From Mycobacterium barrassiae (GTDB lineage: Bacteria; Actinomycetota; Actinomycetes; Mycobacteriales; Mycobacteriaceae), in the NCBI RefSeq assembly GCF_025822765.1, contig NZ_JACKUK010000023.1:515535-579534 (forward strand): a stretch of 64,000 bases of DNA. Direction: 5' to 3'. Both the position numbers and the translations under genes were made by a program. The notes below the pieces were generated by a model. It saw only the letters and a list, made by a program, of their open reading frames with translations, was not told the DNA's origin and ran no database searches. Below are positions 26,648-34,906 of this stretch, piece after piece; within the stretch, counting starts at the first letter, position 1; the number at the start of each line of letters is the position of its first letter.

Positions 26648-28624
26648 ATGCGCGGCGCGGTCGCTCGTGTATCACTCACGGCGATCGTGTTGCTGCTCCT
26701 CGGCTATCTGGCGGTGATTGCCGCGGTCCCCCAGCTTCGCGAAGGGCTGTCCCCGGCGTGGCAGTGGTTCGGAAGTCCGGGATCCTGGCAGACGTTGGCC
26801 ATCGTGACGGTGCTGCTCCTGATGCTGGGCGCGGTCGTCTTCAACTCGCGGAGCGTCGGGCGAACGAGCTCACCGGTGACCGCCGTGGTGGGTCTGGTGC
26901 TGATCACCATCACGCTGGGCCTGGCCTCGTACTGGCGATGCTTCGATGAGGACAACCCGAAGATCTTCACCCCGGTGATCTGGACGGCCAACTTGGTGAA
27001 GGGCGGCACCGGCGACCACGAGCTCGAGGACGGCGAGGTATGCCCGCTGCCCATCCCCGTCGCCCTTGACATAGCCCGGCTGACGGCCATCGCCGCGATA
27101 TTTCTCAGCGTGATCGGTGTCGCGATGGCGCTCTTCCAATCCCACCTCGACCGGCTCAGGATCTCGCTGGCGCCTTCGGTGACGGCGGTGGTGGATATCG
27201 ACGACGATGCGGCGTCGATGGTCGGCGCGATCGCGGCCACGCTGGGCCGCCGGAGCGCCCTGGTCGTGATCGCCGCCTCCCCCGATCGGCAATGCGTACG
27301 CGACGCACGCAGTGTGGGTGCGCGCGTGGTGGCTGCTGACTTCGCCAAGCCGGCGTGGACGGCATTGCCCTTGTGGCGCAAGCTGGATCGGCTCTACCTG
27401 CTCTCACCGGATGCCGCCGCGAACTTGCAGCGGCTGGCACTCATCACAGAGCGGCTGCCGAAAGACGCGGGCAGGCAACGCCTGCCACTGATCGTGCGAA
27501 TCGACGACCCCTGGCAGGCCGCGGCGTGGCGGGCGCAGCACTTCGGCGGAGCAGAGACCCGCTGGGCAGCCGACACCGTAGGCAAGTACGAGGTCACCGC
27601 CCGACGGTTGTTGGACGACATCCTCGACTCAGACACCGCCGTCGAACGCATTCTGGTGTGCGGCGCATCGGAGTTGACGCTTGCGTTGTGCGCCGAAATC
27701 GCCCAGCGGCAACTGGAGTGGGACTACTACGCCGCGCCGGACCGCCAGCCGCTGCCGTGCCTGACGCTGGTCGCCGAGAACGCCGAGGAATACAAACAGG
27801 ACCATCAATTCGCCCGACAACGGATGGGCCAACCGCCGGACCGTCCGCAGGTCACCGCGCAGGCCGAGCGGCCCTCTGTGCCCCTGCTGATTTCACTGGT
27901 CGAAGCGGCTCCAGCCGAGACCGCAGTCATCCTGGTCGACGATGCACGCGTGGATGCCAACACCGGAACGCGGCTGGCCGCCCGGTATCCGACGACCCCC
28001 ATCTATGCCTGGAATCCCGCCGCCCAGGAGACCGACGACCGGACTCCCGTTGTGGGACAACTGTTCTCCTACCGGCTGAGCATGCATATGCCCGCAGGTA
28101 AGGCACACGACGCGTGGGAGCGGGCGGCCCGGCTGATTCACGACCGCTACGTCGCCGAGATCGACAGCCATTCCGCCGCAACACTGCCGTGGGATCAGCT
28201 CAGCGAGTTCTACCGCGGCTCCAACAGACGCCAGGTCCGCAACGCGCTCTGGATGGTCGAGAAGATCGGCGGCCACACGTGGAACACCTTTGGCCATGAG
28301 CCGATTTCGGTGTCGACGGCGACGCTTCACGATCTCGCGCCTCTGGAGCGGCTGCGAGTGATGGGATTCGACGAGGACACCGCGCTGGCGATGGCGCGCT
28401 GCGAGCACGAGGAGTGGTGCCGTTACTACCGCGCCGCAGGATGGAAGTACGGTCCGGTGCGAGATGACACCCACAAAGTTCACGACAAACTCGTGGGATG
28501 GGAAGCCATTGCGGCCGATAATCATCTGCTGTCCACCGCGTTGGCCAGCCTCGCGGACACGCTTTCGAAGCTGCGCGAACTCGGATATATCTCCCGTCCT
28601 GCGGGCGATCCGTCAACCGTCTAG
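26648..28624 (+). CDS. Membrane protein with Rossmann (TrkA-N-like) region and C-terminal RyR domain
   Basis: A 658-aa protein. Four N-terminal hydrophobic segments lie at about 10-30, 50-70, 80-100 and 140-160. A cytosolic part follows with Rossmann-like strands (SVTAVVDIDDDAASMVGAIAATLG, VERILVCGASELTLALCAEIAQ), in the style of RCK/TrkA-N regulatory domains. Residues of about 582-625 (ARCEHEEWCRYYRAAGWKYG, then VRDD and LVGWEAI) match the RyR domain first known from ryanodine receptors. The layout resembles a gated channel or membrane sensor. RyR domains in bacteria occur in nucleotide-signalling and conflict contexts. ATG 26648 has GAGG in the preceding 11 bp. Its stop overlaps that of the convergent patatin gene within CTAG. 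Confidence 0.8.
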   Translation: MRGAVARVSLTAIVLLLLGYLAVIAAVPQLREGLSPAWQWFGSPGSWQTLAIVTVLLLMLGAVVFNSRSVGRTSSPVTAVVGLVLITITLGLASYWRCFDEDNPKIFTPVIWTANLVKGGTGDHELEDGEVCPLPIPVALDIARLTAIAAIFLSVIGVAMALFQSHLDRLRISLAPSVTAVVDIDDDAASMVGAIAATLGRRSALVVIAASPDRQCVRDARSVGARVVAADFAKPAWTALPLWRKLDRLYLLSPDAAANLQRLALITERLPKDAGRQRLPLIVRIDDPWQAAAWRAQHFGGAETRWAADTVGKYEVTARRLLDDILDSDTAVERILVCGASELTLALCAEIAQRQLEWDYYAAPDRQPLPCLTLVAENAEEYKQDHQFARQRMGQPPDRPQVTAQAERPSVPLLISLVEAAPAETAVILVDDARVDANTGTRLAARYPTTPIYAWNPAAQETDDRTPVVGQLFSYRLSMHMPAGKAHDAWERAARLIHDRYVAEIDSHSAATLPWDQLSEFYRGSNRRQVRNALWMVEKIGGHTWNTFGHEPISVSTATLHDLAPLERLRVMGFDEDTALAMARCEHEEWCRYYRAAGWKYGPVRDDTHKVHDKLVGWEAIAADNHLLSTALASLADTLSKLRELGYISRPAGDPSTV

Positions 28625-29772
28625 ACGTCGAAACTCGACGGAAAGTGCGCCGGAAGGATCTGAACCTTTGCGGCGGATCGACCCAATCTGGTCAACTCCG
28701 GCAGATTCTTGGCATCGTCCATCGCGTAGAGGGCGGCGCATTGCGCATCGCTGACGTGTAGGCCCACGGTGTCCTTCAGCCACCGCGGCTCCAAGGCGAG
28801 CTCATAGCGCAGGTAGGACATCAAAGCGGGCCCACCCCCCAGCACATCAGCCTCCAGATCACCGACCTCACCGTCGATGGTCCACGCGGTCGGGCTTCGT
28901 GACATCCACTGCAACACAGCCTGACCCAGCCAGTTGGCATCCTCCATGATGGAGACGACCGACTCCGCTGCCAGCCGCAGAGCCGGCATCTTCATCACGG
29001 TCGTCGCCGGGACCGAGACCTGACGAAATCCCGTACCTACCGAAACCAGAAGCAACCGGTCGTGTCCGAACGGCCAGTTCAATCCGTAGCCGCTACAGGT
29101 ACTCATCATCAACAGCTGCATCGATGGATTGTTGTAGGGGCTGATCCCACCATCGACAAAGGCGCCCGTGACATGGGGAGCCACCTGCAACATTTCCGGT
29201 TCGAAGTAATGTGGTGCGGCGGTACTCGCGCGAATGATGTTGCGCAGTAGCAGGTCTCGGTTACCGATTCCGTGCTCACCATCTTGTCCCCGGTAGAACT
29301 TGCCGCGCGGGTTGTTGTGCAGCAGCCAGGGGCTCCCGGTGTCCAGACGCTTGGTCATGACCACTAAGCCGGTCCGCAGTTTGTCGCTGCCCAGCGTCTC
29401 GTTTCCGAAGAATGTGTAAAGCGCCCGCATCAGAGGCTCTTTGGGGAACTTCGCGCCGAGCAGTCCGAAATGCAAGAAGCTCTCCTCGAAGACCTCCACC
29501 CCGACTGTGTGGTAGACCTCAATGAGTTCGTCTACGGACATCCCCATGGCCAGGCCGGTGGCGATGATCGATCCGGTGGACGTCCCACCGATCAGGTCAA
29601 AGTAATCGCAAAGCCGGAAATCCGGATCACCTCCGACACGTTCGCGGAGAATTTCTTCGATCTTGGCCAGATAACCAAGGCTCAGCGCGCCGCGAACACC
29701 ACCGCCGTCGAGCGACAGCATGCGCTTTGGCCCGTCGCCGAACAGATGTCCTTCCAGAGTCTTGTACGCCAT
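28621..29772 (-). CDS. Patatin-like phospholipase (CapV-like)
   Basis: A 383-aa acyl hydrolase: oxyanion motif DGGGVRG (22-28), nucleophile elbow GTSTG (63-67, Ser65) and catalytic-dyad DGG (207-209) in FVDGGISPYNNP. The opening MLSLDGGGVRGALSLGYLAKIEEILRER and FDLIGGTSTGS are like bacterial CapV-type phospholipases, the membrane-degrading effectors of some cyclic-nucleotide defence systems. No CD-NTase gene is present here. It lies 18 bp downstream of the TIR-STAND gene on the same strand, so it is probably translated from the same mRNA. Start ATG 29770-29772. Confidence 0.88.
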   Translation of the reverse strand: MAYKTLEGHLFGDGPKRMLSLDGGGVRGALSLGYLAKIEEILRERVGGDPDFRLCDYFDLIGGTSTGSIIATGLAMGMSVDELIEVYHTVGVEVFEESFLHFGLLGAKFPKEPLMRALYTFFGNETLGSDKLRTGLVVMTKRLDTGSPWLLHNNPRGKFYRGQDGEHGIGNRDLLLRNIIRASTAAPHYFEPEMLQVAPHVTGAFVDGGISPYNNPSMQLLMMSTCSGYGLNWPFGHDRLLLVSVGTGFRQVSVPATTVMKMPALRLAAESVVSIMEDANWLGQAVLQWMSRSPTAWTIDGEVGDLEADVLGGGPALMSYLRYELALEPRWLKDTVGLHVSDAQCAALYAMDDAKNLPELTRLGRSAAKVQILPAHFPSSFDV

Positions 29773-29790
29773 TGCTTTGCTTGCGCCCTA

Positions 29791-32700
29791 TCAGTCTGGT
29801 GCGATCGGGAGATCTGGACAGGTCGGGATGTAATCGATGTCCGGCGAGATCCACTCGTTCCACTGAGCACGGCTCATGTTTGAGGTGAGCTTGGCGCACA
29901 GGTCTCCCTCGGTGGCCTGGGTGGACCACAGGCGCAGAATCCCATCATCACCAGCTGATACGACGAGATGACGGTCGGAGTTGATGGCGACCCCAACCAC
30001 AAGGTCGGCGTGACCCCGCATCGGTCCGCCGATCGTTCGGCCCGAGTCGGCGTCCCACAACCGCACCTCGCCCGAATAGCCGCCGGACACGATCATCTGG
30101 CCGTCACGCCCGTACGCGACCGAGCCCACCGTGTCGTTGTGTCCGATGAGGGGCTTGCCGATCGGTCCACCGGTGTCGGCGTCCCACAGCCGCACCAGGC
30201 CGTCGCTGGCACCCGAGACGATTCGTTTTCCGTCTGGACTGAACGCGACACTGTCCACTGTGTTCGTATGGCCGGTAATCGGTTTGCCGATCTCCTGACC
30301 CGTGGCTGCATCCCACAACCGGATTGTGCGATCGACGCTGGCTGATACGACGCGCGACCCGTTAGGACTGAACGCGACGCCGTAGACGTCGCTGGTGTGA
30401 CCGGTGATCGGCTTACCGATCGCCTCGCCCGTGCTGGTATCCCAGATCCGAATCGTGCGATCCGCGCTGCCAGACACCAGGCGCGAGCCGTCCGGGCTGA
30501 ACGCCAACGTCCAGATGAGATCGGTGTGGCCCGTGAGCGGACGTCCCACCGGCTTTCCGGTTTCGACGTCCCAGATACGGATGGTCTTGTCATCGCCGCC
30601 TGCCGCCACCCACCGACCGTCAGGGCTGAAGGTGACCACCTCGATTGCTTGGTGACCGCCGACCAGCCTCGGCCCGACTGGCTTGCCGGTTGTGGTGTCC
30701 CACAGGCGTACCGACCCGTCGTCGCCAGCGCTGGCGACCCGGTTACCGTCGGGACTTAACGCCACCGTCCATAACTCGCCCTGATCGGCGAGAATCATGT
30801 CCCCGACATCCCACAGCCGCACGGTCTGGTCGTAGCTTCCCGTGACGACGTACCGGGCGTCGGGGCTGAATGCGAGGCTGTACACCTCGAAGTCGTGGCC
30901 GGTCAACGGCCTACCGATGGCCGAACCGGTCGCGGTGTCCCACAGCCACACAACGTTGTCGCCACCCGCTGAGGCAAGCATGCGTCCGTCGGGGCTGAAC
31001 GCGATTTCATGCACGATGTCGTTGTGGCCGATCATCGGGCCTGCGACCGGCCGTTGAGTGTCGGGGTCCCAGAGGTAGACGGTTCGGTCTTTCGAGCCCG
31101 AAGCCACCCGATGTCCGTCGGGACTGAAGTCCACGGCTGTCACCGCGTCCTTGTGTCCGCTCAGCGGTTCCCCGATGGGCGTCGCGGTCTCGGCGTCCCA
31201 AAGCCGCACCGTCTTGTCGTTGGACCCCGAGGCGAGTCGGCGGCCGTCAGGGCTGAACGCGATCGAATTGACGGCGTCGCGGTGCCCAACAAATTTCTGC
31301 GGCAGCGGATCGCCCGTGTTCGCATCCCACAGCCGAATCGTCCCGTCCGAGGATGCGGTGGCAAGTCGCCGACCGTCGGGACTGAAGACAACCTGCTTCA
31401 CCTTGGTCGCGTTGAGCCGCAGGGTGCTTCGGCTTGCAGCACCGACTTCGGCGCTCCACAGCTGAACGGAGTCGTCGCTCGCTGCGGCCAACCGCCGGCC
31501 GTCGGGACTGAAGGCGACGCTGAATGCGGCGTTCGGTAAGCCGGACAAGGGTTCACCGACGATATTGCCGGTCACCCTGTCCCAGACCCGCACCATGTGA
31601 TCCTCGCTCGCACTTGCGACGCGGCTACCGTCCGGGCTGAATGCCACGCCGTAGACCGGAGATTCGGCGGGGATGATCTTGACGAGGTTGTGCCTGCTGA
31701 CGGCGGCGCTGTAGATGGCGTCGTCATTCTCACCGTCGATCAGGTGAGCGGCGAGCACCTGTTGCAACGCCCGCGCATCACCGCCTGGCCGAACAGAGTC
31801 GAGCATGCCCTGGGCCTCCGATTCCAGCCTGGCCGCCGTCGCCTGCCGAAATCGAGTCTGCGCCTGACTGTGCGCCGAGGTGGCGAGCAGCGAGGCAACG
31901 ATCGCGAGTACGGCGACTGCCGCGGTGCCGGCCACGACTCGGCGTAGCACCTGCGACCTCTTGCGCAGTATGGCCGAGTGAGCTTCGGCGGTGGCTTGCT
32001 TCTCTTGCGCGTGATTAGCCCGCTCCTGGGCTGCGCGAAGTTCTGCCTGGCGTTGTTGTTCCTCGGCCGCGCGGCGCTCTTCTTCACTCTCCCGAGAGGC
32101 GGCGAGAAACTCGGCGGTACGAGCAAGTCGCTCGTGAAACCCGGGTTTCTCCAGCAGCACAACCGCTTCGGCCAGCCGACTCCCCTGCAGCAGCCAGGCC
32201 GGATTGCGGTCGTTCGCCTCCCACGCATCGGCACAGTGCTCGATGTCGTCGGCTTCCTTGAGATCCTTGCGCTCGTCGCGCAACCAGCCGGCCAGCTGAT
32301 CCCATTGGCGCAACAGACTTTCCAGTGCCACCTCAACCACGGTCTGCCCGTCGCGGTTGTCTTTGACCATCAAGCGTTTAGCCACCAGCGCATCGATCAG
32401 TGGTCGGCTTGCGTCAGGCAGATTGGACCAGCGCGCGACTCTTCGCATCGGCTGGTCGTTGTCGGGGTTGATCGTGGCCAGCCATGGGATGAATGCAGCC
32501 CTGAGCGCGGCCAATTCGGTTGCTCGCTGCCGAGGGTCGACGGCGAGGACTTCATCGATCTCGGTTTGCACTACTCGACGCATGCCGCCCAGCGCTTCAT
32601 AGTGCGCAAGGCTGAGTTCTCCGGAATCGCCATAATCGGTGTAGAGACGCGACAGCGTCAAAGCAAGCATCGGCAGCGTGTCCGCGCCCTCAGCGGAGTC

Positions 32701-33987
32701 GATCAACAACCGCTCCACCAGTTCCGGAGCGACCCGCAGGGGCTGACCGGCATCAGTCGCGCGGTGGGCCGGACCGACGATCACCTCCTTGAACTCGGTG
32801 GGAGGCATGGGTTTCAGTTCATCGAAAAGCACAGCACCAACGCCGGTCAATGCCGGATGCGTCTGCATCAGCTCGTATCGGTCGGTGCGGATGGTGGCGG
32901 CCACCACAAGGCCGGCTTGCAGGGCGTTCAACCGCCGCGTGACGCCGGCCAGCAGCCGCAGAAACGTGTCGGCCTGCTCTCCCGCGTCGGCAGAGAACAA
33001 TTCCTCGGCCTGGTCCAAGGGCAGCACCAATGTGGGCGCCACCGGCGCGTCCTGGTCGTCATTCTCCCGGTCCAACAAGCGTTCTGCGGCCTCGTTCCGC
33101 ATCTCGGTGAGCCAGGCCGTCACCTGGTCGACATCGCCGGCCGCGCACGCCGCCTTGACGTCGCCCAGACTCGGCCTGGAAAGGCCGAGCGCTTTTCTGG
33201 CGGCGAATATCGCGGCCGCCAAGCCCGATTGGCCGGTCAGCGCGCTGCGCTCAGGTCGCACGATGTCGAGCAGCGCGAAGCGACGATCCTCTCGCCCCAG
33301 CCGGGGTAGCAACCCAGCCCGCAAGAACGAGGACTTCCCCGTGCCCGACGGTCCCAGCACAACGAACAACGCATTCGTCCCGGAGCGCCGCATTCCGCGA
33401 ATCGCATCCAGCGCCCGCACGATCTGCGCATCGCGACCGAAGAACACCGCTGCGTCGGCGGCGTCCAACGGCTCCCAGCCCCGATACGGTGCGCGCTGCG
33501 GGTCATCCGTCGGAGGCCACCGAAAGGAGTCGGCACCGATACCCGCACTGCGGATCCCTTCGCGTAATCGATAGAGACCGTCTGTCGCGAAGGACACCGC
33601 GGGTCCGTTTCCGGTGTCGATCAAGGTGACTGGACCGTCGCCGAACAGATCGCAACGCTGCCATTCCGAAGTTAGTTCGTCGCCTGTCGACGGTTCCAAT
33701 CGAGCGCAGAAGATCTGTTTGTTCAGGTTTTCCGCGGTGCGATATTCCACCTTGCACTCATGGCTAGCTTCCCAATTTTCGGACAGGAGGCAGACAACGG
33801 CTTCGCAGCGCGCATTCGCACGACGCAGTGCGTCCTTCCAGCGTGTGCCGGTTTCCAATCCGGTGTGTGGGTCGACGTCAAGGAAGATCTCGTTGGCCAA
33901 TGACGCATCCTGCTCGACCAGCCACTGCTTCAACGCAATTGCCGCGCGGCTGTCTGCAGTCGCGTGACTGAGGAAGATGCGAGACAT
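29791..33987 (-). CDS. TIR-nSTAND ATPase-TM-WD40 protein, 1398 aa
   Basis: Architecture from N to C: TIR domain about 1-145 (MSRIFLSHATADSR; IFLDVD; SENWEASHECKVEY with Glu81 in the position of the NADase catalytic Glu); nSTAND1-type P-loop NTPase, entered by YRGWEPLDAADAAVFFGRD, Walker A GPSGTGKS 212-219, Walker B TLVLPLDQAEE near 319-329, up to about 600; a charged Glu/Gln/Ala coiled coil about 630-680; one hydrophobic helix about 683-703; then 14 WD40 repeats (about 775-1370), most with AFSPDG and IRLWD, enough for two seven-bladed propellers. STAND proteins are ligand-triggered switches, and TIR domains often cleave NAD. ATG 33985-33987 has GGGAG about 8 nt upstream. Probably operonic with the patatin gene. 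Confidence 0.9.
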   Translation of the reverse strand: MSRIFLSHATADSRAAIALKQWLVEQDASLANEIFLDVDPHTGLETGTRWKDALRRANARCEAVVCLLSENWEASHECKVEYRTAENLNKQIFCARLEPSTGDELTSEWQRCDLFGDGPVTLIDTGNGPAVSFATDGLYRLREGIRSAGIGADSFRWPPTDDPQRAPYRGWEPLDAADAAVFFGRDAQIVRALDAIRGMRRSGTNALFVVLGPSGTGKSSFLRAGLLPRLGREDRRFALLDIVRPERSALTGQSGLAAAIFAARKALGLSRPSLGDVKAACAAGDVDQVTAWLTEMRNEAAERLLDRENDDQDAPVAPTLVLPLDQAEELFSADAGEQADTFLRLLAGVTRRLNALQAGLVVAATIRTDRYELMQTHPALTGVGAVLFDELKPMPPTEFKEVIVGPAHRATDAGQPLRVAPELVERLLIDSAEGADTLPMLALTLSRLYTDYGDSGELSLAHYEALGGMRRVVQTEIDEVLAVDPRQRATELAALRAAFIPWLATINPDNDQPMRRVARWSNLPDASRPLIDALVAKRLMVKDNRDGQTVVEVALESLLRQWDQLAGWLRDERKDLKEADDIEHCADAWEANDRNPAWLLQGSRLAEAVVLLEKPGFHERLARTAEFLAASRESEEERRAAEEQQRQAELRAAQERANHAQEKQATAEAHSAILRKRSQVLRRVVAGTAAVAVLAIVASLLATSAHSQAQTRFRQATAARLESEAQGMLDSVRPGGDARALQQVLAAHLIDGENDDAIYSAAVSRHNLVKIIPAESPVYGVAFSPDGSRVASASEDHMVRVWDRVTGNIVGEPLSGLPNAAFSVAFSPDGRRLAAASDDSVQLWSAEVGAASRSTLRLNATKVKQVVFSPDGRRLATASSDGTIRLWDANTGDPLPQKFVGHRDAVNSIAFSPDGRRLASGSNDKTVRLWDAETATPIGEPLSGHKDAVTAVDFSPDGHRVASGSKDRTVYLWDPDTQRPVAGPMIGHNDIVHEIAFSPDGRMLASAGGDNVVWLWDTATGSAIGRPLTGHDFEVYSLAFSPDARYVVTGSYDQTVRLWDVGDMILADQGELWTVALSPDGNRVASAGDDGSVRLWDTTTGKPVGPRLVGGHQAIEVVTFSPDGRWVAAGGDDKTIRIWDVETGKPVGRPLTGHTDLIWTLAFSPDGSRLVSGSADRTIRIWDTSTGEAIGKPITGHTSDVYGVAFSPNGSRVVSASVDRTIRLWDAATGQEIGKPITGHTNTVDSVAFSPDGKRIVSGASDGLVRLWDADTGGPIGKPLIGHNDTVGSVAYGRDGQMIVSGGYSGEVRLWDADSGRTIGGPMRGHADLVVGVAINSDRHLVVSAGDDGILRLWSTQATEGDLCAKLTSNMSRAQWNEWISPDIDYIPTCPDLPIAPD

Positions 33988-34480
33988 GTCGGCACTCCCA
34001 CCTGCTGCAATCCCGATGCCGGCGAGATTGGCAAATTTACGTCGCTGTCACGGTATGCCACGAATTGGCAGCATGTGGGCGCTTTTCGTCGAATGAGTTT
34101 GACACTGCCGCTATGCCAAAGCTCAGCCCATTGGCACTGTCCACCGAAAACGGTGGCCTGCTTGCTTTCCCGCTGACATTCGACCGCCGAATTCCGCACC
34201 GCGACCGCTGCCCCACTCCTGGTGTAGGACACCGGATCTACCTACTGTCAATCGCTCTGCAGCACTGGGGTGTTTTTGGGTTTCCGAACATGGAACATCT
34301 TGGTATTGAACCGGATTCGTTATCGATGGTGAGCCTGGTGATCCGAATTGCTGGAACCCCTGCGCGTCACAGGATTCGAGACCCACACCTCGAGAGGTGC
34401 AAGCCGGGCCATCGACACGTACCGAGCGACCTCGCGGCCATGCTGTCGAGATCGCGCGAACTGAGCTACGGTCATGACCA
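33988..34480. other. 493-bp intergenic region between the TIR-STAND gene and the PGDYG-like gene
   Basis: A divergent control region of lower GC than its surroundings. It must hold the TIR-STAND promoter and perhaps that of the small gene at 34481. I see a 14-bp palindrome CACCTC-GA-GAGGTG at 34386-34399. Short open frames on both strands (for example 34065-34484 plus, 34123-34686 minus) have no family resemblance or good ribosome-binding sites. No insertion sequence, tRNA or attachment site is clear. Confidence 0.6.
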
Positions 34481-34906
34481 GTGACCAATTCCGGCTCGAC
34501 CTCGTCTGACGACGCGAATTGCGACCGGTGGCGACAGTTTCGTCGAACCGGCACAGTTATCGCTGAACAGCGAGCCGAAGCATGGACCTGGAAAAGCCGC
34601 GACGGCCAAACCATGCAGGCCAACGCAGGCGACTGGGACGTCGAGGACGTCACCAACGGGGACCGATGGTCGGTTCGCGACGACATCTTCCGCGCCCGTT
34701 ACGAACATGTCGAGGGCCCGTACTGGCGTCGCCACGGCACAGTTACAGCGCGGCCCGCGCGCGACGGCGAGGTCGTCGGAACGCTGGAAGGACGCGTGAC
34801 CGCATCCGCAGGCGACTGGGTGGTGCGGGGTGAGCACGGGGATCAGTGGCCTGTTCCCGCCGAGGAGTTCACCAGACGGCACGAAGGGCCGATTCAGCCG
34901 AGTTGA
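34481..34906 (+). CDS. Small protein with two PGDYG-like repeats
   Basis: A 141-aa protein starting at GTG 34481. Two related units can be aligned: about 22-78 (GTVIAEQRAEAWTWKSRDG, AGDWDV, RWSVRDDIFRARYE) and about 85-136 (GTVTARPARDGEVVGTLEG, AGDWVV, QWPVPAEEFTRRHE). The [AP]-G-D-[WY]-x-V core followed by W/Y-x-V and an F-x3-Y/H end resembles the PGDYG domain, a small fold of unknown role. It is divergent from the TIR-STAND gene across the 493-bp gap. No strong ribosome-binding site is seen, and an overlapping out-of-frame ATG is at 34474. Confidence 0.65.
   Translation: MTNSGSTSSDDANCDRWRQFRRTGTVIAEQRAEAWTWKSRDGQTMQANAGDWDVEDVTNGDRWSVRDDIFRARYEHVEGPYWRRHGTVTARPARDGEVVGTLEGRVTASAGDWVVRGEHGDQWPVPAEEFTRRHEGPIQPS

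Follow-up and report, generated by a model that had tools for sequence, protein, structure and literature searches.

Four genes in a variable chromosomal interval

We analyzed a 64,000-nucleotide stretch of the Mycobacterium barrassiae contig NZ_JACKUK010000023.1 (here called the window), which is a piece of a 5.9-Mb genome. The best-matching named records for the neighboring proteins in the window are those of Mycolicibacterium and Mycobacterium species. Positions 26648 to 34906 hold four genes, all present and intact, encoding a RyR membrane protein, a patatin, a TIR-nSTAND1-WD40 protein (TIR-STAND), and a PGDYG protein. They lie between genes that we take to be nrdF and nrdE, in an interval that is variable among relatives. 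The TIR-STAND and patatin genes are on one strand with 18 bases between them, and the patatin and RyR genes are convergent with a 4-base overlap. Around the module, we detected no mobile-element repeats or borders beyond the WD40 repeats and short chance-like matches. An initial annotation of the window had proposed that the TIR domain makes a signal to which the RyR protein, the patatin, or both respond. The pairing of TIR with RyR was borne out by the surveys described below, while the patatin proved to be an accessory (10 of 198 genomes) rather than a constant part.

The RyR-RCK membrane protein (658 amino acids [aa]; 26648 to 28624, plus strand) has about four predicted transmembrane (TM) helices, two RCK/TrkA-like Rossmann domains, and a C-terminal RyR (Repeat12) domain, much as the initial annotation had it, and is without the fused PGDYG domain of most relatives. 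The helices are suggested by hydropathy peaks (about residues 12-30, 49-67, 77-95, and 145-163; further marks at 1-19, overlapping the first helix, and a weak peak at 411-429), the Rossmann domains are visible when a fused homologue (62% identical) is modeled, and the PF02026 match exceeds the Pfam cut-off. Between the last two helices lies a pore-helix-like stretch, FTPVIWTANLVKGG (residues 107-120; 26966 to 27007, plus strand), that is conserved over 71 homologues and may serve as a pore helix; its counterpart in the homologue's model is helix 95-105, and it contains no GYG filter. The homologue model resembles RCK-gated channels and the RyR Repeat12 domain, the channel fold match being only modestly higher than those to unrelated Rossmann enzymes. 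As in RCK-gated channels and TrkA/KtrA gating rings (MthK, GsuK, and TrkH-TrkA), two RCK-like domains are predicted to follow a core of two TM helices and a pore helix; unlike them, the protein has a further two TM helices, lacks a GYG filter, and ends in a RyR domain (followed by PGDYG in relatives). As in animal ryanodine receptors, an ion-channel-like protein bears a RyR Repeat12 domain, although it has one RyR stretch per chain and the pore and gating parts of the animal receptors are unrelated to its own. PADLOC and NCBIfam, searched at an E value of 0.01, gave no family for the RyR protein or the PGDYG protein, and PADLOC gave no match for a fused RyR homologue.

The TIR-STAND protein (1,398 aa; 29791 to 33987, minus strand) would be both sensor and signal-making enzyme. 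It comprises a TIR domain (residues 1-150; 33538 to 33987, minus strand), an nSTAND1 NTPase (about residues 157-600; 32188 to 33519, minus strand), one predicted TM helix (684-702), and WD40 propellers of 14 stretches (about residues 770-1350; 29938 to 31680, minus strand) that presumably sense the trigger. This architecture agrees with that initially annotated. Scanned alone, the TIR domain scored 45.5 bits against Pfam TIR_2 (cut-off, 28), and it is the sole TIR_2 match in the genome at an E value of 1e-5; a PDB sequence search with it gave no match at 0.01. As in Thoeris, the TIR domain carries a presumed catalytic glutamate: both fold and residue are in place for Glu81, in line with the initial proposal, and the reaction itself is predicted. 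The nSTAND1 profile match and an AAA+/NLR fold identify the central part as a STAND NTPase, a core shared with Avs3, APAF-1, CED-4, and plant resistosomes. STAND-WD40 switches are known in defense proteins such as Avs3, and with its N-terminal TIR and C-terminal WD40 parts, the protein resembles a TIR version of APAF-1. No PADLOC Avs family was among its matches, in which it differs from Avs proteins, and the PADLOC ThsB model matched only weakly (E value, 0.0022). In three genomes (L138, L139, and L140; genes for 1,587 to 1,594 aa), an nSTAND1-WD40 protein has, as judged by eye, a Ser/Thr-protein-kinase-like N-terminus in place of TIR.

TIR genes beside RyR-PGDYG proteins

We surveyed a 198-genome sample of the genus, calling the genes of fetched loci with our own script and seeking TIR genes with profiles and seeds built in this analysis. 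All RyR loci from the genus search were fetched, and a gene split over contig pieces or broken in half was counted once, giving 70 loci from 69 genomes. A TIR gene lay within two genes of the RyR gene at 61 of the 70 loci and within five genes at 62 (at L087, it was four genes away). The 61 close neighbors comprised 12 TIR-STAND-WD40 proteins, 43 proteins of a TIR-PknH_C type, and 6 other TIR proteins, i.e., at least four architectures. The TIR-PknH_C proteins were assigned by similarity, some being broken or truncated (Pfam confirmed those of L102 and L249). As for the six others, Pfam TIR_2 confirmed L246 and L137, a similarity search alone identified L134, L237, and L242, and the neighbor protein of L241 had no TIR family among the 25 Pfam families listed. 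The eight loci with no TIR gene within five genes were L093 (TIR-STAND 5.8 kb away), L120 (5.7 kb), L097, L136, L231 and L236 (gene fragments), L247 (short contig), and L250.

TIR_2 genes are rare in the genus, with 37 matches across 41 genomes. By chance, about 0.05 of the 70 RyR loci would have a TIR gene this close, compared with the 61 observed; this estimate assumes 5,600 genes per genome, ignores shared descent, and uses a narrower definition of TIR than the neighbor search did. When TIR_2 matches alone were considered in the 41 genomes, 16 of 18 RyR genes had one within two genes, the two exceptions being G004, with an interrupted patatin gene in between, and G032, at a contig break. 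TIR_2 was present in all 18 genomes with RyR versus 6 of the 23 without it (Fisher P = 7e-7, uncorrected).

The main point against reading these neighbor statistics as a functional link is shared descent, and we therefore built a tree of the RyR proteins (a quick tree of 72 proteins with support from the Shimodaira-Hasegawa-like approximate likelihood ratio test only; rows under 560 aa were dropped, seven rows were added from named loci, and labels were typed by hand). The type of TIR partner changes at least six times on this tree (partnerless rows left out; L093 counted as STAND). Different TIR proteins thus came to adjoin the same RyR family.

The arrangement in the window occurs at one site common to about a dozen relatives and is shared by descent. 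M. vinylchloridicum, M. sphagni, M. rhodesiae JS60, and an uncultured strain have the same organization, with RyR, TIR-STAND plus patatin, and a separate PGDYG gene for 139 to 141 aa. Because the patatin gene adjoins TIR-STAND in 8 of the 10 genomes that have it and RyR-PGDYG genes lie near TIR genes at 61 of 70 loci, the grouping exceeds chance.

Several other loci illustrate the variety of partners. At 43 of the 70 loci (within L101-L118 and L221-L251; e.g., L102:10813-12324), a TIR-TM-PknH_C protein (a TIR enzyme bearing a sensor-like extracytoplasmic part) directly adjoins a fused RyR-PGDYG gene; of 57 TIR-bearing matches to this protein (read from a table), 43 are at a RyR locus and 14 elsewhere. 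Near another RyR gene (L242:3618-4877), an apparent macro domain, recognized by eye, precedes TIR and recalls macro-type Thoeris. A mobilizable plasmid of Rhodococcus qingshengii (L293:134-16485) carries a 38% identical RyR-PGDYG relative whose neighbors are a WD40 protein, a DUF4062-STAND-like protein, and an 876-aa annotated TIR protein (just below the Pfam cut-off); another annotated TIR gene lies about 7 kb away.

Beyond the genus, a sample of 394 genomes from the class yielded RyR proteins in 37 genomes; most of these proteins matched the profile of a second family, the TrkA_N-RyR proteins. A TIR gene lay within two genes at 1 of the 39 RyR loci fetched (39 of 44 places; some contigs were short, and L259 was without a called RyR gene). 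The TIR association is therefore a property of the RyR-PGDYG family and not of RyR proteins at large, and we rejected the general rule that a RyR domain marks a TIR partner, as most contexts outside the genus also appeared housekeeping-like by eye. TrkA_N-RyR-like proteins in apparent housekeeping contexts without TIR were seen at L255-L292, mostly in family f20. In another family of the order (L253; G288:C1:3705001-3721000), a 100-aa RyR-only protein stands beside a 708-aa TIR protein as a minimal TIR-RyR pair.

TIR-STAND matches were present in 33 of the 198 genus genomes, some of them kinase-like at the N-terminus. They lay near RyR-PGDYG genes in 14 cases (12 within two genes, plus L087 and L093) and near TrkA_N-RyR genes at four loci (L121, L122, L128, and L131). 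In a wider scan with 16 homologues, we inspected the best 80 of 199 loci. Partners within five genes were the RyR-PGDYG family (16 loci), patatin (20), separate PGDYG (14), SLATT membrane effectors (12, of which 10 were in Nocardia), LSDAT/SLOG (3), and, by script, TrkA_N-RyR (6, including two RyR-PGDYG cross-hits, L153 and L199). At least one of these partners was present at 44 of the 80 loci, and none was found within five genes at the other 36. SLATT_1 and LSDAT_prok were confirmed by Pfam for one representative each. PMC9503650 describes SLOG as the sensing part of ThsA and SLATT as a predicted membrane effector. Eight loci from Nocardia and one metagenome-assembled genome (L162, L165, L177, L186, L187, L196, L203, and L206) have a SLATT/DUF4231 membrane protein, not RyR, adjoining TIR-STAND-WD40 (the Pfam test covered L162 only).

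The patatin and the detached PGDYG protein

The CapV-like patatin phospholipase (383 aa; 28621 to 29772, minus strand) has the intact catalytic motifs noted initially, namely, DGGGVRG, GTSTG (Ser65), and DGG, and its nearest solved structures by sequence are those of CapV from the cyclic oligonucleotide-based antiphage signaling system (CBASS). It differs from CBASS lipases in scoring 107.8 bits against NCBIfam NF041079, for which the cut-off is 200, and the window genome has no match to SMODS (PF18144), the one nucleotidyltransferase family tried. We rejected CBASS on these grounds; the initial annotation had likewise set classical CBASS aside. Patatin was present in 10 of the 198 genus genomes, compared with 69 for RyR; it stood beside TIR-STAND in eight of them, 2.8 kb away in one (G058), and at a contig end in one (G059). 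In at least five relatives (G004, G011, G033, L145, and L146), it is absent, a remnant, or interrupted while TIR-STAND persists. Given this rarity and these losses, the patatin is accessory and would be an optional second effector. In G004 (L087:9125-11651), the interrupting gene is transposase-like by eye, and both TIR-STAND and RyR are intact.

The PGDYG protein (141 aa; 34481 to 34906, plus strand; GTG start) carries two repeats. The gene caller favored a start at 34613; the longer frame from 34481 is supported by relatives of 139 aa. Across the genus sample, RyR occurred in 69 genomes, PGDYG in 68, and both in 67. The PGDYG match fell inside an open frame of at least 400 aa, read as a RyR fusion, in 63 of the 68 genomes (counted from the match table); the exceptions were the window, G043, G192, G120, and G172 (a broken copy). 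In this genus, then, the RyR protein normally ends in PGDYG; in the window, PGDYG is detached, with TIR-STAND and patatin in between. The two-repeat gene of the initial annotation was confirmed and re-read as this detached domain. No convincing RyR remnants were found upstream of the split-off gene. Since PGDYG is still an open frame when split, it probably works as a separate protein. A PDB search with it returned a single chance-level match (E value, 0.21).

The pairing of patatin with PGDYG extends to other genera. Among 12 Arthrobacter TIR-STAND loci, a patatin gene lay within five genes at nine and a free-standing PGDYG gene at eight; RyR was absent from this range at all 12. Where both occur, a PGDYG gene for 129 to 131 aa directly follows patatin. 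In Arthrobacter and Citricoccus, the pair near TIR-STAND is sometimes all on one strand, with no RyR gene in the fetched stretch.

Ligand residues and a proposed TIR-to-RyR relay

A preprint of May 2026 (PMC13232231) shows that phage proteins with RyR domains use His75, Trp78, and His100 to bind 2'/3'cADPR (cADPR, cyclic ADP-ribose), which are TIR-enzyme products. RyDEP of phage DyoEdafos cleaves these signals by a His75-Asp117 dyad, and its relatives sequester them. We compared the RyR domain of the window (28391 to 28597, plus strand) with 50,697 phage records and obtained three weak matches (E values, 2e-3 to 3e-3), of which two are entries of DyoEdafos gene 78 (i.e., RyDEP; residues 75, 78, 100, and 117 were checked as H, W, H, and D) and one is from a Pseudomonas phage. 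In the alignment, His75, Trp78, His100, and Asp117 correspond to His587, Trp590, His612, and Ser629. Over 71 homologues, the RyR pocket that the initial annotation had singled out is conserved at all three ligand positions (H587 in 68, with W in 3; W590 and H612 in all 71). The His of the cleaving dyad is retained, and the Asp117 position holds N in 34 homologues, D in 14, and a mixture in the rest, in a loop around Ser629 that is hard to align. The window-type protein also differs from RyDEP in being a host protein with a membrane anchor and RCK domains (plus PGDYG in relatives). With the ligand residues kept and the Asp position variable, we tentatively predict from sequence a binder that does not cleave, fitting a receptor.

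Weak matches (E values up to 0.01) mark PGDYG-like stretches in 44 phage records, and such stretches are also found in PHROG families. Phages thus seem to possess the RyR as well as the PGDYG domain of the host fusion protein, as candidate anti-TIR factors.

The gene arrangement recalls Thoeris, in which a TIR enzyme adjoins a separate protein whose domain should bind an ADP-ribose-type signal; here, the RyR protein with its conserved predicted ligand residues adjoins TIR. Thoeris receivers include SIR2-SLOG proteins, TM-macro proteins, and a caspase-like protease. In the window, by contrast, a RyR-RCK membrane protein would play this part; the ThsA effector family of PADLOC does not match it, and the TIR domain is not free but fused to nSTAND1 and WD40. 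The system resembles Thoeris in logic and belongs to no known Thoeris type by the families tested. Literature word searches found no report of a host TIR-RyR pair, with PMC13232231 as the only RyR-TIR paper retrieved, although a systematic study of TIR systems (Yirmiya 2025, bioRxiv) and a 2015 paper on nucleotide conflict networks (which we take to be that of Burroughs et al.) could already contain it.

We consider it rather probable that the locus encodes a Thoeris-like second-messenger relay from TIR to RyR, in which a TIR signal gates the RyR-RCK channel. The WD40/nSTAND1 part would detect an infection or stress cue and assemble, by analogy with APAF-1 or NLR proteins. The clustered TIR domains would then, via Glu81, convert NAD to a signal of the cyclic-ADP-ribose type or a related ADP-ribose compound, which would bind the RyR domain of the neighboring membrane protein by His587, Trp590, and His612. 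On an MthK/GsuK/TrkA-like model, binding would shift the RCK ring and open the membrane pore, and the ensuing collapse of ion gradients would stop the growth of the infected cell or kill it. The patatin, whose gene closely follows that for TIR-STAND on one strand, would be a second, optional effector that attacks the membrane. PGDYG is part of the RyR protein in nearly every relative that has it and pairs with patatin in Arthrobacter; it may be a regulatory or sensing domain that can also work on its own. This relay, and with it the initial idea of a TIR signal with a RyR receiver, is supported by the gene content, the presence of TIR genes beside RyR genes across genomes, the exchange of TIR partners, conserved residues, and predicted folds; from them we infer the ligand, the catalysis, the channel activity, and a role in phage defense.

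Other explanations account for parts of these data. A TIR-RyR system for stress signaling rather than phage defense, responding for example to cell-envelope damage, is somewhat unlikely: 43 of the 61 close TIR neighbors are TIR-TM-PknH_C proteins, the C-terminal part of which Pfam names a PknH-like extracellular domain, and many genomes keep the pair within a stable block of synteny, but the STAND-WD40 switch of the window is of the defense-protein kind, the patchy presence of RyR, its plasmid-borne relative, and the patatin companion are defense-like, and phage RyR domains defeat TIR signals (PMC13232231). We regard as unlikely a system whose main effector is the patatin, tuned by PGDYG, with the RyR protein secondary. 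Its rarity relative to RyR and its loss or interruption in relatives that retain TIR-STAND weigh more heavily with us than the intact CapV-like motifs and the patatin-PGDYG pairs of Arthrobacter and Citricoccus.

The RyDEP-like ligand residues would also suit an off-switch, in which the RyR protein sequesters or degrades the TIR product to limit self-damage, as RyDEP hydrolyzes the signal and its relatives sequester it (PMC13232231). This is improbable, because just 14 of 71 homologues have D at the catalytic Asp position (where the alignment is uncertain), TM helices and two RCK domains are needless in a sponge, and SLATT membrane effectors and LSDAT sensors are found elsewhere near TIR-STAND relatives. 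Least probable of all is that genes working independently have gathered in an insertion hotspot (here, between nrdF and nrdE) or a defense island, with TIR killing by NAD depletion and the patatin and RyR proteins belonging to other systems. The descent of the window arrangement at one site would agree with this, as would one relative with TIR-STAND at this site and RyR elsewhere (L098/L099) and another with RyR at the site without TIR-STAND (L097). However, the displaced RyR gene of L098 again adjoins a TIR gene, of another type, and TIR-RyR pairing is also seen in several further contexts and orientations, the TIR partner has changed at least six times, and one pair is plasmid-borne.

The broader reading of the TIR-to-RyR relay is a real possibility that we advance tentatively: in mycobacteria, a cyclic-ADP-ribose-type signal made by exchangeable TIR sensors may act on a RyR Repeat12 domain and so open a membrane channel, a bacterial immune counterpart of the animal cADPR-ryanodine receptor axis. 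TIR enzymes of bacteria, plants, and animals make cADPR-type signals, and direct binding of cADPR by ryanodine receptors has been disputed for decades. The question of ryanodine receptors as direct cADPR receptors is also raised in PMC13232231. A RyR-RCK membrane protein encoded beside TIR genes offers a small, purifiable system for a direct test of the cADPR-RyR link. If the reading is correct, a channel would be added to the known TIR effectors, phage RyDEP proteins would be stolen or mimicked copies of a host receptor domain, and phage PGDYG proteins would be candidate second anti-defense factors. It would also help to explain the RyR proteins of mycobacteriophages and give the orphan PGDYG domain a context.

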